DNA of 42,006 nucleotides, from positions 1 through 42,006 of the IMG/VR virus record IMGVR_UViG_3300008448_000198; one strand, 5' to 3'. The position numbers were made by a program, and so were the translations under genes. Position 1 is the first letter of the stretch. Every line of letters begins with the position of its first letter. Origin of the DNA: a virus. Below the pieces are notes generated by a model. The model worked only from the letters and a program-made list of their open reading frames with translations. It had not been told where the DNA came from and searched no databases. This document shows, one piece after another, positions 2,393-9,073 of this stretch.

Positions 2393-5128
2393 ATGAAAAT
2401 TTGCTTTATTGATACGCTTGGATTGCCGTATAACGGAGAAACCGTATACAAACGCGGACTCGGTGGATCGGAATCAGCAACAGCTTACATATCAAAAGAA
2501 CTCCACAAACTAGGATTCGATGTCACCGTCTTCAATAATTGCGAAGACGGTGACATCATGCCAGGAGTTTTCGATGGTGTCAAATATTCTCATATAAGAA
2601 CAATTCCACAAAGTGGATGCGATTGGGATGTTGTCATCGCTCTGAGATCTGTCAGGCCTTTTTGTCAGACACAATTCAACGATAATCTCATTTTCCCAGA
2701 CTTCACCAACATTATGCAGAACGCAAAGTACAAGGTTCTGATGATGCACGATACGTTCTGTGAAGGTGATAATCTGATTGAATATCTGGTCAACACGAAT
2801 CACATTGACGAGATATTCACCCTGAGCGATTGGCATACAAGCTATGTCACGACTTGTAATCATGGGGCAAAACGAAACTTCGAGATTCTTAAAAAGAGAA
2901 TCTTTCAAACGCGTAATGGCGTTGGTGTGATTCCAGAATGGGTTGATATTAAACAGAAAGACCCATTCCACTTTGTCTACAATGCCTCTGTTACAAAGGG
3001 TATGATTCCTCTTGTAACAAAGATCTGGCCAAAGATCGTCGAGTTCGAACCAAGGGCCAAGCTTACGGTCATTGGTGGGTTTTATAGGTTTGGTGAGAAT
3101 GCTTCTCCTGATCAGCAGGAACTTGATTGGAGGAAACTCGTCCAGGATAATCCCCATAACATCAATTTCACTGGGGTAATCTCTCAAAAAGAAATCTCTG
3201 ACATACTTAGATACGCAACATACTTCCTGTATCCATCGGCGTTTCCAGAGACGTTCGGCATTTCGACGCTTGAGGCATTGTGCCATAACGTTACTCCGAT
3301 CACATGTAAGAACGGAGCTCTTGAAGAAACTGCCCTTGATATTTCTTCTTATAAGATCAACTACACCATCGAAAAGAATTGGTCATGCCCTTGGCTGAAT
3401 GAAGAAGAGCAGGTTGAGCACTTTGTCAATCTCGTCAAGTGGGCTATGTCAACCCCATATCTCCAGCAACAGAAAGCATATTCCTGTAATCAAGTTAAGG
3501 GAATCTGTGGGTGGGATACGGTTGCCCTTCAGTGGAAGCAGCATATCTATAATAAGCTTGGCCAGTACCTTCCTGTTAAAGAATACAGAAAGGTCAACAA
3601 GATCAACAAGAAAGTATCAAAGGTTTTCGGGAAAACCTGGGTAAATCAGGTCGAGAAGACCGAACCCAAACAAAAAGAGACCACACAATTTGTTATCGTT
3701 ACCCCAGTATATAATGCCGAGAAATATATTGAGAGATGCATCATGTCCGTTGCTTCTCAGGATTATGATAACTGGGAAATGTGGATTATTGATGACTGCT
3801 CGACAGACAACACTGTCAAAGTTATTGAGGGTGTCCTCAATAACCTGTCGTTATCTATTGAGGATAAGATTTATCTTATAAAGAATAGTAAGAGACAGGG
3901 TGCTGTTAGAAACCAGGTAATGACAATCGTAAACGATATCCACTGTCATGAAGATCAAGTTGTCATGCTTCTGGATGGAGACGATTGGTTAGTAAACGAT
4001 CCCACAATCTTTGACAAGTATAACGCCCTTTATAATGATGGGGCAGAATTCACTTATGGATCTTGCTGGTCGGTCATTGACAATATTCCTCTTATCTCAC
4101 AAGAGTATCCAGAAGAAATCAAGATAACCAAGAATTACAGGCAATATAAATTCAACTGGGGTATGCCTTATACCCACTTCAGAACCTTCAAAGCACAGAT
4201 GCTGCATTCCTTTGTTCTTAGCGCAGGAACATTTCCATTCAAGAATTCTGATGGAGAATGGTATAAAGCAGGAGGAGATAACTCGGTTTTCTATTATATG
4301 ATCGAGGCAGCTAATCCTGACAAGGTTATCTGCGTTCCCGATGTGGTTTATTGTTACAATGATGCAAATCCTCTTTGTGACTATAAAGTCAACAGTGAAG
4401 AACAGAATAAAACAGCTTCAGATATAACCAAAGAGGAAACGCCTGAAAAGTTTTCTGTTATTATTCCAACAATGTGGAGAGCCAAAGAATTTATAAAGAT
4501 AGCTTTGGGTAATTACTGTAATCATCCTCTAGTTGATGAGATTATTCTTATCGATAATGACACTAACAAGACCCCAGATTGGGATATTCTGAACAACCCA
4601 AAGATTAGATCTTTCAAACAAGAAAGAAACATCTTTGTCAATCCTGCCTGGAACTTTGGTGTGGCAGTTGCAAAAAACAATAAGCTCTGTATTGTCAATG
4701 ATGATATTGTTTTTGATCCTAAACTATTCGACAAGGTCTATGAATTAGTTGTGCCACAAAACGGAACTATTGGTATGGTTACTGGTGAAGAAAAGTTTAA
4801 CCACCCACCAACCACAGATGGTTCTATTTCATTCAAAGTGTGGAACATGGGTGATAACACCCATGGGTTTGGACAGCTGATGTTCCTTCATAAGAACAAT
4901 TGGAAACCGATCTTAGATGGATTGAATATCTATTACGGTGACGAATTTATCTTCTATCAAGACATATTAAATAACAGGAAGATTCGTCAGATCTACAATT
5001 TCTTCTATGATACAATTTTTGCAGCAACCACAAGTGATAAGTCTTTGGTAGGCGATGCTCTACTTGAAGAAAATGTAATATTCAATCAATATCTCCAATC
5101 CCTCAGGGGACCTTCAGGGGGAAAATAA
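2393..5128 (+). CDS. Three-domain glycosyltransferase (GT4-like + two GT2-like)
   Basis: This 911-aa protein would transfer sugars from activated donors to a glycan. Residues 1 to about 395 look like a GT-B (GT4-type) enzyme: GLGGSESATAYISKEL near the N-terminus and SAFPETFGISTLEALCHN near the end of the domain. A GT-A/GT2 domain begins near residue 431 (VIVTPVYNAEKYIERC), with WIIDDCSTD and the metal-binding DGDDW near 527. A second GT2-like domain begins near 684 (SVIIPTMWRAKEF) with VNDDIVFDP near 768. The gene ends one base before the start of the next, a related glycan enzyme, so the two probably act together. The target (virion protein, phage DNA or host surface) cannot be read from sequence. 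Confidence 0.85.
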   Translation: MKICFIDTLGLPYNGETVYKRGLGGSESATAYISKELHKLGFDVTVFNNCEDGDIMPGVFDGVKYSHIRTIPQSGCDWDVVIALRSVRPFCQTQFNDNLIFPDFTNIMQNAKYKVLMMHDTFCEGDNLIEYLVNTNHIDEIFTLSDWHTSYVTTCNHGAKRNFEILKKRIFQTRNGVGVIPEWVDIKQKDPFHFVYNASVTKGMIPLVTKIWPKIVEFEPRAKLTVIGGFYRFGENASPDQQELDWRKLVQDNPHNINFTGVISQKEISDILRYATYFLYPSAFPETFGISTLEALCHNVTPITCKNGALEETALDISSYKINYTIEKNWSCPWLNEEEQVEHFVNLVKWAMSTPYLQQQKAYSCNQVKGICGWDTVALQWKQHIYNKLGQYLPVKEYRKVNKINKKVSKVFGKTWVNQVEKTEPKQKETTQFVIVTPVYNAEKYIERCIMSVASQDYDNWEMWIIDDCSTDNTVKVIEGVLNNLSLSIEDKIYLIKNSKRQGAVRNQVMTIVNDIHCHEDQVVMLLDGDDWLVNDPTIFDKYNALYNDGAEFTYGSCWSVIDNIPLISQEYPEEIKITKNYRQYKFNWGMPYTHFRTFKAQMLHSFVLSAGTFPFKNSDGEWYKAGGDNSVFYYMIEAANPDKVICVPDVVYCYNDANPLCDYKVNSEEQNKTASDITKEETPEKFSVIIPTMWRAKEFIKIALGNYCNHPLVDEIILIDNDTNKTPDWDILNNPKIRSFKQERNIFVNPAWNFGVAVAKNNKLCIVNDDIVFDPKLFDKVYELVVPQNGTIGMVTGEEKFNHPPTTDGSISFKVWNMGDNTHGFGQLMFLHKNNWKPILDGLNIYYGDEFIFYQDILNNRKIRQIYNFFYDTIFAATTSDKSLVGDALLEENVIFNQYLQSLRGPSGGK

Positions 5129-6442
5129 ATGAAAAAGATTCTTATTGCTATTCCCACAGCAAGATACATTGAACCAGAGACGTTCAAGTCAATCTATAAT
5201 CTCAACACACCAATTGGATATAGTGTTGACTTCCAGTATTTCTATGGATACAGGGTTGACCAAGTAAGAAATCTTATTGCTGATTGGGCGAAGAGAAACT
5301 CGTTTTCCCATGTATTCTTTGTTGATCATGATATCACTTTCCCTCCTGATACTCTTGAAAGACTCGTCTCTTATGATAAACCTGTAATAAGCGGAGTTTA
5401 TAGACAGAGAAATGAAGAACAACATCTAGAAATCTATAACCAAAATTACGCAAAGACTCCACCCGAGGAACTCTATAATCTCAGGAATTATGTTGATGGT
5501 CATAATGATCTTGTCAGAATTGGTGCTTGTGGATTTGGTTGCGTTCTCGTAAAAACAGAAGTGTTTGGTATTGTTGGATATCCACAATTCGAATATCACG
5601 TTGCCCTTGATCACAATAACACCTTAAGCGAAGATGTGGATTTCTGCAGAAAGGTAAACAACAAAAACCTTTCCGTTTGGTGTGATAGATCTGTTATCTG
5701 TGGACATATTGGTTCAAAAACCTTTGAGGTAATTAAGCCACCACAAGATGTCCTTGAGAAAAACCACTTTAGAGATATTCATGACTCACTAAAACTGCCT
5801 GATGGCCATATCCGATATCTTGAACTGATGGCAAGGAATGGAAGAAACCCAAAAACGATATTCGATATTGGTTCCTGCGTTCTACATTGGTACGATCAGG
5901 CTAGAAGGATCTGGCCTGATGCCAAGGTAATTCCATTTGATGCAATGACAGAAGTTGCTTCTCTCTATGATGCGCAAGGTATTGATGAATATATTGTTGG
6001 TGCTGTTCTGAGTGATACAGATTTAAAGGAAGTAGACTTCTATCAGAATCTCCAGTGGTTTTCTGGAAATTCAGTTTATAGAGAAAATCCAGCGCTGTCA
6101 TCGCTGGCCAGTTCTATCTTTACAGATAATCATATTGTAAAGAAGAAAACGATTACTCTGGACACTCTTGTCAGTATGTATAATCTACCAAAGCCCGATC
6201 TCATCAAGATGGACGTTCAGGGCTCAGAACTTGATATTCTTAGGGGTGCTACGAAGACTCTTGAGAGTTGCACTGATTTGATTCTTGAACTACAAACCAA
6301 AGATTATAATATGGGAGCTCCCCAGGCAACTACGGTAATTGAATATCTCAAGACAATCGGGTTTACCCTTGTCGGAAATTTGCCATTCAATGTTAACGGC
6401 AAAGACACTGATGCCGACTATCACTTCAAAAGAGTTATATAA
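5129..6442 (+). CDS. Glycosyltransferase / FkbM methyltransferase fusion
   Basis: The 437-aa product joins two domains. The N-terminal part (about 1-230) begins IAIPTARYIEPETF and carries FFVDHDITFPPD near residue 62, a GT-A-type donor/metal-binding acidic motif. The C-terminal part (about 240-437) looks like an FkbM-family methyltransferase: KTIFDIGSC as the SAM-binding strand, and IKMDVQGSELDILRGA as the family's typical later motif. An FkbM domain would methylate a sugar or related hydroxyl group. The start follows the previous stop with no gap, which implies coupled translation with the three-domain glycosyltransferase. The acceptor is unknown. Confidence 0.8.
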   Translation: MKKILIAIPTARYIEPETFKSIYNLNTPIGYSVDFQYFYGYRVDQVRNLIADWAKRNSFSHVFFVDHDITFPPDTLERLVSYDKPVISGVYRQRNEEQHLEIYNQNYAKTPPEELYNLRNYVDGHNDLVRIGACGFGCVLVKTEVFGIVGYPQFEYHVALDHNNTLSEDVDFCRKVNNKNLSVWCDRSVICGHIGSKTFEVIKPPQDVLEKNHFRDIHDSLKLPDGHIRYLELMARNGRNPKTIFDIGSCVLHWYDQARRIWPDAKVIPFDAMTEVASLYDAQGIDEYIVGAVLSDTDLKEVDFYQNLQWFSGNSVYRENPALSSLASSIFTDNHIVKKKTITLDTLVSMYNLPKPDLIKMDVQGSELDILRGATKTLESCTDLILELQTKDYNMGAPQATTVIEYLKTIGFTLVGNLPFNVNGKDTDADYHFKRVI

Positions 6443-6445
6443 ATA
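6438..6445 (+). promoter_or_regulatory. T4-type late promoter (TATAAATA) for endolysin
   Basis: Perfect match to the T4 late promoter -10 element. In T4, transcription starts a few bases after this element, here at about 6450-6453. That start falls inside the 5' arm of the hairpin at 6447-6469, so late mRNA would lack most of that arm. Confidence 0.85.
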
Positions 6446-6446
6446 G

Positions 6447-6469
6447 ACCAGTTGTTTATTATAACTGGT
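6447..6469 (+). promoter_or_regulatory. RBS-sequestering hairpin upstream of endolysin
   Basis: ACCAGTT (6447-6453) and AACTGGT (6463-6469) form a perfect 7-bp stem with a 9-nt loop. The 3' arm overlaps the GGTGG ribosome site of the endolysin gene. Transcripts reading through from upstream contain both arms; transcripts from the late promoter would not. Confidence 0.65.
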
Positions 6470-6476
6470 GGAAATC

Positions 6477-6971
6477 ATGGCTAAGAGAGAATTAATTTCA
6501 AAGAACTTCTATTTTGACGAGTTCACATACTCACCGACGGCAGTTGCAAAAAAGATTCCGAATGAACCAAACGTGGAACATTCGAAGAACCTGAAGAATG
6601 TCGTAAGGTATATCGTCCAGCCAGTTAGAGATCATTTCAATAAGCCTGTCAAGGTCAACTCGGGTTATCGATCCGCTGCAGTTAATGCTGCTGTTGGAGG
6701 ATCAAAGACTTCCCAGCATATGGTTGGAGAAGCAGTTGATATTGAAATTGAAGGAGTTCCAAACAAGGTCCTTGCTGATTGGATTGATAAGAATCTAAAT
6801 TACGATCAGTTAATCTTAGAGTTCTATAATCCCATGAAGGGAGTAAACTCAGGTTGGGTCCACGTTTCTTTAAAGAGAACAGGGCTAAATCGCAAATCCA
6901 AGCTTGTGGCCTTTAAAGATGGAAAAACAACTAAATATGAAAAGGTCTCTGATTTTTCAAAGGTGAAATAG
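6477..6971 (+). CDS. Peptidase M15-type endolysin (D-Ala-D-Ala carboxypeptidase-like)
   Basis: A 164-aa zinc peptidase of the M15 (VanY/M15_3-like) fold, expected to cleave peptide cross-links in peptidoglycan at lysis. The diagnostic motif SQHMVGEAVD gives likely zinc ligands His81 and Asp88, with His129 in GWVHVSL as the third; NSGYRS upstream is also typical. No signal peptide is present, so a holin or similar would be needed to reach the wall. ATG 6477 is preferred over GTG 6468 because GGTGG sits 5-9 bases upstream of the ATG and MAKREL is a normal N-terminus. A perfect late promoter and an RBS hairpin lie immediately upstream. Confidence 0.85.
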   Translation: MAKRELISKNFYFDEFTYSPTAVAKKIPNEPNVEHSKNLKNVVRYIVQPVRDHFNKPVKVNSGYRSAAVNAAVGGSKTSQHMVGEAVDIEIEGVPNKVLADWIDKNLNYDQLILEFYNPMKGVNSGWVHVSLKRTGLNRKSKLVAFKDGKTTKYEKVSDFSKVK

Positions 6972-7194: not shown

Positions 7195-7200
7195 AAAGGC

Positions 7201-7231
7201 TTGACAAGCAAGGGTAAATGGGGTATAAATA
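7201..7231 (+). promoter_or_regulatory. Combined sigma-70 and T4-late promoter of the tmRNA gene
   Basis: TTGACA at 7201-7206 is followed, after exactly 17 bases, by TATAAATA at 7224-7231. The first hexamer and TATAAA form a near-consensus sigma-70 promoter, and TATAAATA is the perfect T4 late element. The host holoenzyme and the phage late machinery could both start transcription a few bases downstream, near 7237. Confidence 0.8.
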
Positions 7232-7236
7232 GTCTT

Positions 7237-7525
7237 AATGATAGTGAACTGAGGAAAATTAAAACAAGCAACACTCGGGGGCAGTGCCCGACGGCTCCAC
7301 CAAAAGTACACCAAGTAGGTTCGATGCCACGGAGTTTTTGGTGTACTTTTGATGGGGCCGACACAGGTTCGACTGTTTGTAAATAGGTTCTGAGGCTATC
7401 CGGATGTTCTCCGTTAAACGAACAAAAACACTAAATGCAAACGATAACGACTTTGCATCTGAGTTCCGCCTAGCAGCGTAACCGCAGTGGGTTGGTGGTC
7501 TTCCTAGAAACAGAATAGGCCACAC
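7237..7525 (+). ncRNA. ssrA: Circularly permuted (two-piece) tmRNA
   Basis: tmRNA rescues stalled ribosomes by acting as alanyl-tRNA and then as mRNA for a degradation tag. The order here is permuted. The acceptor piece comes first: T-stem TCGGG/CCCGA (7275-7279 with 7287-7291), then CGGCTCC, A and encoded CCA at 7300-7302. A spacer (7303-7353) contains a perfect 13-bp stem with A7302 (7302-7314 with 7338-7350). The coding piece then begins GGGGCCG at 7354. GGGGCCG pairs with CGGCTCC over 7 bp, including a G-U at the third pair, the alanyl-tRNA synthetase identity element. TGTTTGT (7374-7380) pairs with ACAAGCA (7264-7270) as the long P2 helix. The tag frame at 7437-7481 reads ANDNDFASEFRLAA then TAA. 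The T-loop (GGCAGTG) lacks TTC. The outer ends of the gene are approximate. Confidence 0.92.
7495..7523 (+). other. Conserved-loop hairpin, copy 1 (3' of tmRNA tag)
   Basis: GTGGTC (7495-7500) pairs with GGCCAC (7518-7523), with one G-U. The loop contains TCCTAGAAACAGAA at 7502-7515, identical to the loop of the hairpin at 8102-8129. The stems differ but both pair, so the structure is supported by covariation. It may be the 3' structure of the tmRNA coding piece, a processing or stability signal, or a protein-binding site. Confidence 0.7.
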
Positions 7526-7556
7526 TTATCTTTCAACAACATTAAGAGTAAAACAT

Positions 7557-8087
7557 ATGAACAAATCACTTATTCTCGCTGCAGCTGCGGCTCTTCTATT
7601 CTCTTCTCCAGCTTTCGCACAAAAGGTTTCAGTCGGTTCAACAGACAACGATAAGACCAGAGACTCAGTTTTCGTTGCTGCTGAGTATGCGAAAGATACT
7701 GGTTTCTATGACACCCAAGCAGTTGTTGAGGCTCGTCTTCGTTCCTCCAACCAACACTTTGTAAAGCTTGGCGTTCAGCGTGAACTCGCTACAGATGGCG
7801 TTCTTTCTGTGAGCGGACGCGTGAATCTTGTTCAGGATTTTGGTAAGAACTCTGGCCTCGGTTGGTCGGTTGAACCAACTGCAGCGTTCAAGGTCGCTGA
7901 TGCAAAAGTGACACTTGGTTATGAGTTTGGTGATACGTTCAAATCTGATGCTCGTGCGCGTGTTCGTAATGCTTCTGTAGAAGTGATGTATCCAGTAAGC
8001 TTCGGCGACGTTGGTGTTCTATTCGAAAGCGATATCGGCGATCGTCGTGAGAAGTCTCTCTCACTAGTATACGTGGCTCGCCAGTAG
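7557..8087 (+). CDS. Secreted beta-rich (outer-membrane-like) protein, 176 aa
   Basis: The N-terminus is a clear Sec signal peptide: Lys3, a hydrophobic core of Leu, Ile and Ala, and a likely cleavage after PAFA (about residue 21). The mature part of about 155 residues has alternating polar and hydrophobic stretches, as in small beta-barrels (VVEARLRSS, VTLGYEFGD, VSFGDVGVLFESD, LSLVYVARQ). It lacks a terminal Phe. It resembles small outer-membrane proteins more than any phage structural protein, and I cannot name a family. It sits between the tmRNA and a tRNA, with the same-loop hairpins on both sides, so it looks like part of an accessory cassette. A role in altering the infected cell's envelope, for example excluding other phages, is only inference. 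Confidence 0.7.
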   Translation: MNKSLILAAAAALLFSSPAFAQKVSVGSTDNDKTRDSVFVAAEYAKDTGFYDTQAVVEARLRSSNQHFVKLGVQRELATDGVLSVSGRVNLVQDFGKNSGLGWSVEPTAAFKVADAKVTLGYEFGDTFKSDARARVRNASVEVMYPVSFGDVGVLFESDIGDRREKSLSLVYVARQ

Positions 8088-8140: not shown

Positions 8141-8216
8141 TCCGGTGTAGCTCAGTGGTAGATGCGCCTGCCTGTTAAGCAGGATGTCCTTGGTTCGAAC
8201 CCAAGCTCCGGAGCCA
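8141..8216 (+). tRNA. tRNA-Asn (anticodon GTT), CCA encoded
   Basis: The cloverleaf is readable: acceptor strands 8141-8147 and 8206-8212, anticodon stem CCTGC/GCAGG (8167-8171 with 8179-8183), loop CTGTTAA with anticodon GTT at 8174-8176, T-arm CTTGG-TTCGAAC-CCAAG (8189-8205), and an encoded CCA at 8214-8216. Two oddities are an apparent T-T mismatch at the sixth acceptor pair and an extra T in the 3' strand of the D-stem (GATGC where GAGC would pair with GCTC). It would read Asn codons AAC and AAT. These defects may lower function, but the core bases are intact. Confidence 0.85.
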
Positions 8217-8244: not shown

Positions 8245-8499
8245 ATGAGTAAGAAGCTTGACACGATTAAACTAGAACTGGGGATTGATCCCCAGATTAT
8301 TCTAGAGAAGATCGATTATATCGCAAAAAACTGCAACACAACATACAGTGATGCAATTCTTCACTATTGCAAGACAAGCAATACCGAGATTGAAGTTGTT
8401 GCCGAACTTATCAAGAGCAGCCCCAAGATGAAGAATCTTCTTCAGCTGGAGTATGAGTCGGTCAATATGCTACCAAAAACGTCAAGGCTTCCGATTTAA
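8245..8499 (+). CDS. 33: Late transcription co-activator gp33-like
   Basis: The 84-aa product matches the small gp33-type proteins of T4-like phages, which bridge host RNA polymerase and the sliding clamp to activate late promoters. Evidence is the size, the helix CNTTYSDAILHYC, the C-terminal ESVNMLPKTSRLPI, and the T4 gene order 33-59-32. AGGAG lies at 8227-8231, which is 13 bases from this ATG, with a closer weak GGTGA; a five-codon frame at 8235-8252 overlaps the start. The seven perfect TATAAATA sites in this window are the kind of promoter this protein would serve. Confidence 0.75.
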   Translation: MSKKLDTIKLELGIDPQIILEKIDYIAKNCNTTYSDAILHYCKTSNTEIEVVAELIKSSPKMKNLLQLEYESVNMLPKTSRLPI

Positions 8500-8500
8500 G

Positions 8501-9073
8501 ATGACGGGGTTTGACGCTTATCAAAACTTTCTATCGCTCAAACAACACTTTACCTCCGACTCTTATGACTTCTTCAAATACAACGGAAAGCTCAATCTAG
8601 ACAGTTCTAAATTCCAACTACGAAAAGATAGATTCTTTTTCGAGAAATTGGCCAAGAAGAAAGATCTAGTTGGTTTGGTTGTTTCTAATGTCATTGATCA
8701 TAACATCGCTTGGGTTGGTGATCTGTTTTCTGATAAAGCCGAAACCACATATAACAATTGGCTTAAAAGAAAAGAGTCTATCACCTATATCTTTAAGAAT
8801 GACATCAGCAATCTTCTTGTTGATTTCAACCAGAACTTTATTGTACGGGATGGACAACATCCACACCTTCTTAAACTCATCAGGCAAAATAAGATCTCAT
8901 TCGAAACCTTTGTCATTCTTGCAGACATTGTTGGGTTTATCCCCCACTGGAACAAGAACATCAAAGAAAACATTATTTGGCCAATATATTCAAGAAAGTG
9001 CTTGAAGTATAGACCCTTTATAGTATATGATAGAGCTAAGTTCAAAGCTATATTGCGGGAAAAGTTCAAATAA
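8501..9073 (+). CDS. 59: Helicase loader gp59-like
   Basis: The 190-aa protein resembles T4 gp59, which loads the replicative helicase onto gp32-coated forked DNA. Similar features are DAYQNFLSLKQHF near the start, YDFFKYNGKL, RKDRFFFEKLAKK, IAWVGDLFSD, and IRQNKISFETFVILADI. Its position between gp33 and gp32 matches T4. ATG 8501 is preferred over the in-frame ATG at 8453, because the extra 16 residues would overlap the gp33 gene, whose stop ends one base before 8501. Confidence 0.85.
   Translation: MTGFDAYQNFLSLKQHFTSDSYDFFKYNGKLNLDSSKFQLRKDRFFFEKLAKKKDLVGLVVSNVIDHNIAWVGDLFSDKAETTYNNWLKRKESITYIFKNDISNLLVDFNQNFIVRDGQHPHLLKLIRQNKISFETFVILADIVGFIPHWNKNIKENIIWPIYSRKCLKYRPFIVYDRAKFKAILREKFK

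Follow-up and report, generated by a model that had tools for sequence, protein, structure and literature searches.

We found that the window, by which we mean the whole 42 kb virus record analyzed here, carries at positions 7237–7525 of the + strand an intact circularly permuted tmRNA gene of the alphaproteobacterial type, as judged by both Rfam and ARAGORN. The record is a fragment of the genome of a T4-like myovirus, with genes for gp33, gp59, gp32 and the baseplate. We put the probability at roughly 85% that this is a functional gene owned by the phage, which serves ribosome rescue and tagging through infection; its most likely role is to act together with host SmpB, early as well as late.

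In the Rfam covariance search, the check that the initial annotation had proposed, the alpha_tmRNA model (RF01849) matched 7197–7526 of the + strand with 107.9 bits (E 1.1e-28, model positions 1–355), and the tmRNA_permuted model (RF04321) matched 7240–7481 of the + strand with 116.9 bits (E 2.5e-22, model positions 1–213). Both scores are far above the cut-offs of 50 bits for RF01849 and 47 bits for RF04321, and the window tmRNA covers the whole length of the two models. ARAGORN, which is independent of Rfam, reported a permuted tmRNA at 7210–7572 with the tag ANDNDFASEFRLAA. Together with the T4-like genes of the virus record, these matches bear out the initial annotation, which had described a phage-borne permuted tmRNA of the alphaproteobacterial type. 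The parts of the gene and the landmarks around it are the following.

7201–7231, + strand: composite promoter TTGACA-N17-TATAAATA, the single exact match in the window, with a predicted start at about 7236–7238.
7237–7302, + strand: acceptor piece of the permuted tmRNA, from RF01849, RF04321, the pairings and covariation.
7275–7291, + strand: T-arm, within the acceptor piece.
7303–7353, + strand: intervening segment with a hairpin of 12–13 bp, from RNA folding and sequence, presumably removed on maturation.
7354–7525, + strand: coding piece, with the acceptor 5′ strand, the P2 5′ strand, the tag frame and a 3′ hairpin; the RF01849 match extends to 7526.
7437–7481, + strand: tag reading frame ANDNDFASEFRLAA with stop TAA, from ARAGORN and translation.
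8245–8499, + strand: gp33-like coactivator of late transcription, located downstream of the tmRNA (PF16805, 7.8e-10; phrog_254, 2.1e-7).
8453–9073, + strand: gp59-like helicase loader, the synteny anchor (phrog_269, 6.7e-57).

The order of the pieces is permuted, with the acceptor part ahead of the coding part as originally described: the encoded CCA (7300–7302) precedes the acceptor 5′ strand (7354–7360), and the spacer lies in between. The acceptor stem pairs GGGGCCG at 7354–7360 (5′ strand) with CGGCTCC at 7292–7298 (3′ strand), and the discriminator A and the CCA occupy 7299–7302. This fit can be read directly in the sequence, and it completes the alanine identity set, which consists of the G-U at the third pair, the A discriminator and CCA. 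The P2 helix that had been proposed was likewise confirmed from the letters, TGTTTGT at 7374–7380 forming seven pairs, one of them G-U, with ACAAGCA at 7264–7270. The claim that the gene has a tag frame of its own agrees with the ARAGORN tag and with the translation of 7437–7481, in which the alanine resume codon GCA opens a frame encoding ANDNDFASEFRLAA, with a small hydrophobic C-terminus, followed by TAA. Two details needed amendment. The spacer does contain a stem, which in RNA folding is a long hairpin that stacks on the acceptor stem (z = −2.84), but this stem has 12 bp (7303–7314 with 7338–7349) and reaches the 13 bp first given only by including the A of CCA. The T-loop, which is closed by the T-stem TCGGG/CCCGA, indeed reads GGCAGTG without TTC, but this is ordinary: across 97 phage copies, loops such as GGCAGTA and GGCGGTA occur most often, and the alpha consensus in Rfam is GGCgGUA. 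Because it belongs to the commonest class among phage relatives and resembles the alpha consensus, we regard this loop as no anomaly.

The genes in this part of the window follow the order endolysin, tmRNA, a 176-aa ORF, tRNA-Asn, gp33-like, gp59-like and gp32-like SSB genes, and then tail and baseplate genes. No entry of the viral collection searched exceeds 52% identity to the window gp59, which is about 40% identical to those of cultured phages, for example Sinorhizobium phage phiM12 and Caulobacter phage Cr30; in the regions of phiM12 and Cr30 examined there was no tmRNA. The tRNA-Asn(GTT) of the window (8141–8216) lies between the tmRNA and gp33, and Cr30 likewise has a tRNA-Asn(GTT), 1.8 kb upstream of gp59. 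The 176-aa ORF between the tmRNA and tRNA-Asn (7557–8087) has a signal-peptide-like N-terminus (MNKSLILAAAAALLFSSPAFAQ) and looks secreted; searches of PHROG and Pfam and a tblastn search of phages gave no match for it. Upstream of the endolysin gene, 2393–6442 encodes first a double glycosyltransferase of 911 aa and then a protein of 437 aa that has an FkbM-type methyltransferase domain.

The promoter at 7201–7231 has −35 and −10 elements of the sigma-70 type, and its −10 element, TATAAATA, has the same sequence as the late promoter of T4 (PMC2984593). Where 2.5 copies of TATAAATA would be expected, the window has nine, every one of them on the + strand, and no shuffle reached nine; the eight other copies lie 22–53 bp upstream of + strand ORFs, the endolysin gene among them. 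By its copy number, its strand bias and its placement before ORFs, TATAAATA looks like the late promoter of this phage, for which it is a candidate. Late promoters of the T4 type depend for their activity on gp55, gp33 and gp45. Among 70 non-redundant relatives, 37 have exact TATAAATA at the tmRNA start, compared with 10 of 1347 control windows, and 28 have the composite form, compared with 5 of 1347; the control windows come from the same contigs. As the relatives are akin, these counts are not independent trials. The composite form was defined as a perfect TTGACA 16–18 nt before TATAAATA, with at most one mismatch in TATAAATA, and the spacer is nearly always 17 nt. By eye, TTGACT and TATACT were noticed, as an unscored observation, in some of the relatives that lack TATAAATA. 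Overlapping early and late promoters have been reported in RB49 and S-PM2, where they are described as a middle mode (PMC2984593). A limited literature search revealed no description of a composite promoter at tmRNA genes, and within that search its presence at the tmRNA start goes beyond what has been published.

The sequence, the pairings, the tag and the promoter motifs are observed, and from them we infer transcription, processing and tagging. A tmRNA is charged with alanine by way of its G-U pair and is delivered by SmpB to stalled ribosomes, which switch to the tag frame, and the LAA end of the tag leads to proteolysis. Infection of the T4 type breaks down mRNA, so that stalled ribosomes are to be expected and rescue would keep ribosomes in use. 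In the early phase, host RNA polymerase would transcribe the window tmRNA from the sigma-70 promoter, and after the gp55 late sigma factor and the gp33 coactivator take over, the same −10 element, TATAAATA, would serve as the late promoter; the composite promoter thus predicts tmRNA expression both early and late. By analogy with cellular two-piece tmRNAs, host RNase P and 3′ nucleases would cut out the 51-nt hairpin spacer, and the two resulting RNAs would stay joined via the acceptor stem and P2. The molecule would then be charged by host AlaRS via the G-U pair and carried to ribosomes stalled on broken mRNAs by the SmpB of the presumed host, on which it would depend, since no SmpB was found in the window, itself only part of the phage genome. 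The ribosome would switch to the tag frame, append ANDNDFASEFRLAA and terminate, and the LAA end would direct the tagged fragment to host proteases of the ClpXP type. Over the whole infection, the net result would be to return ribosomes to use and to remove protein fragments.

A different emphasis, proposed for phage Melnitz, is that the tmRNA mainly tags host proteins for degradation and so recycles amino acids early in infection (PMC9004378). The LAA ends of the tags and the early-type −35 element would fit this proposal. However, tmRNA works on stalled ribosomes and not on finished proteins, and the late promoter element suits continued use during the synthesis of virion proteins; we therefore consider such a main role highly unlikely. 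The timing of tmRNA expression becomes testable, because the composite promoter predicts early plus late expression, whereas the published view of Melnitz is early only.

At the DNA level, phage records yielded nothing in a near-identity search and just short matches to the acceptor arm or the tag region in a distant search. We therefore used proteins as anchors and assembled 41 gp59-anchored loci from T4-like viral contigs that extend 3.4 kb or more upstream of gp59. Plasmids contained no match either. In 25 of the 41 loci, ARAGORN found a permuted tmRNA 0.2–3.6 kb upstream of gp59 and always on the gp59 strand. ARAGORN alone undercounts, as eight of the 15 loci that it left empty hold a tmRNA by Rfam, which brings the total to 33 of 41; of the other eight, the Rfam scan covered all but L080. 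No tmRNA was seen in about 20% of comparable loci, which indicates that some relatives can do without it. In a separate attempt to trace a host tmRNA with a tag-coding pattern, one bacterial genome scan matched two MAG contigs; both candidates were rejected, as their genomes lack an alpha tmRNA, and none was found in the phylum of one of the two MAGs either.

Pairing of P2 does not follow a single fixed register across phages, and the covariation described here concerns the acceptor and T-stems. These were 100% paired in 23 divergent phage copies, a set that is somewhat selected for good pairing, since it leaves out one poorly placed row and loci whose strands could not be placed by a simple motif search. 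Slid controls of the same set paired in just 46–64%. Two-sided changes numbered 16 in the acceptor stem (shuffle maximum 8) and 30 in the T-stem (shuffle maximum 16), in a shuffle that does not remove the relatedness among the copies, and in several stem columns three or four kinds of pair occur. Each of the 24 phage copies compared has the acceptor G-U pair. The tags of the gp59-anchored set are of 21 kinds, all of which end in AA and 19 in LAA. Complete stem covariation and conserved LAA tag ends indicate that the genes have been selected as working tmRNAs, and the comparisons show a phage gene family that, on the strength of its sequences, is under selection for function. This confirms that viral two-piece tmRNAs are frequent among T4-like phages and maintained by selection. 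The tags, which differ between viruses, offer mass-spectrometry handles on which proteins a phage tags.

The same data bear on two other explanations. In one, the RNA is a decoy that blocks host trans-translation by binding SmpB or else alanyl-tRNA synthetase, as has been proposed for the RNA of mycobacteriophage DS6A, which consists of a tRNA-like domain only (PMC4131195; PMC11915505). Such a decoy would draw on the affinity of that domain for SmpB and on the excess of RNA that the strong composite promoter could yield. Yet a decoy needs no tag frame, and the frame has been retained across phages together with the resume GCA, the stop codon and the LAA end, which makes this role very improbable. 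Although tmRNA genes often serve as integration sites, and a captured-host or integration origin is raised in the Melnitz paper (PMC9004378), we give hardly any credence to a captured host tmRNA or an attachment-site relic, left by integration or imprecise excision at ssrA and devoid of selected phage function, because the two pieces, the CCA, the tag and the promoter are all intact, no integrase is among the window proteins scanned, and the idea is largely refuted by the conservation of a same-strand tmRNA near gp59 in 33 of 41 loci, where the stems show compensatory changes and the tag ends are preserved.

The gp59-anchored loci also differ in the type of tmRNA that they carry. A beta-type tmRNA (RF01850) occupies the same locus in L059, L064, L066, L073, L074, L009 and L063. 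In the gp59 tree, in which the label "none" is wrong for the eight loci with a tmRNA by Rfam, the beta-type loci form two well supported groups separate from the alpha-type loci once the ARAGORN misses are corrected. The gp59 of L072 is identical to that of L074, yet L072 matches RF04321, and the alpha model only in part. Read most simply, this suggests an old locus at which the type of tmRNA follows the presumed host lineage. On balance, we lean towards the wider proposal that, in T4-like phages of hosts with a two-piece tmRNA, a tmRNA at this fixed locus is standard equipment, of alpha or beta type as appropriate to the lineage and in many lineages with a merged sigma-70/late promoter for early-to-late rescue. 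A single locus whose tmRNA is of alpha or beta type depending on the phage clade goes beyond the literature that our limited search retrieved.

Marine T4-like phages have been described with permuted tmRNAs before (PMC9004378), and the window tmRNA is a further member of this group. In Melnitz, a phage of Methylophilales and likewise a T4-like marine myovirus, a permuted alphaproteobacterial-type tmRNA also lies immediately upstream of the gene for the late transcription coactivator (PMC9004378). In contrast, an early promoter and a glutamine riboswitch are reported for the Melnitz tmRNA (PMC9004378), whereas the window has the composite early/late promoter and no riboswitch above the Rfam gathering score. 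Pelagibacter (SAR11) phage HTVC008M carries a permuted alpha-type tmRNA, unannotated in its record (NC_020484, 145103–145414; L204, 8104–8415), which as in the window lies upstream of a gp33-like gene but has the tag ANFNEYALAA and GGTTTGA in place of GGTTCGA; the stretch examined contains no exact TATAAATA. With alphaproteobacterial ssrA (RF01849) the window gene shares all modelled helices, the GGCgGUA-type T-loop, the tag frame and the piece order, and it differs in being virus-encoded and in carrying the T4 late promoter element. The tmRNAs of RcXuper, vB_RpoS-V10, vB_BgoS-Bajun and Cp1R7A-A1 are also permuted, and their acceptor and T-arm are 87–94% identical to those of the window over 34–41 nt, whereas the rest of the gene has diverged and the tags are different. 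Among the regions shown for these four phages, a tmRNA is annotated in Bajun only; the permuted tmRNAs lie at L208 2938–3360 in Rhodobacter phage RcXuper, L209 2935–3361 in Ruegeria phage V10 and L211 1436–1845 in Mesorhizobium phage Cp1R7A-A1. Two loci (L025 and L026, both at 2541–2618) have a phage tRNA with the amber-reading anticodon CTA, called tRNA-Pyl, within about 120 bp downstream of a permuted tmRNA. Marine virus AG-345-O18 (L207) has a manA RNA (6323–6520) and a PhotoRC-II RNA (1556–1640) less than 10 kb upstream of gp59.
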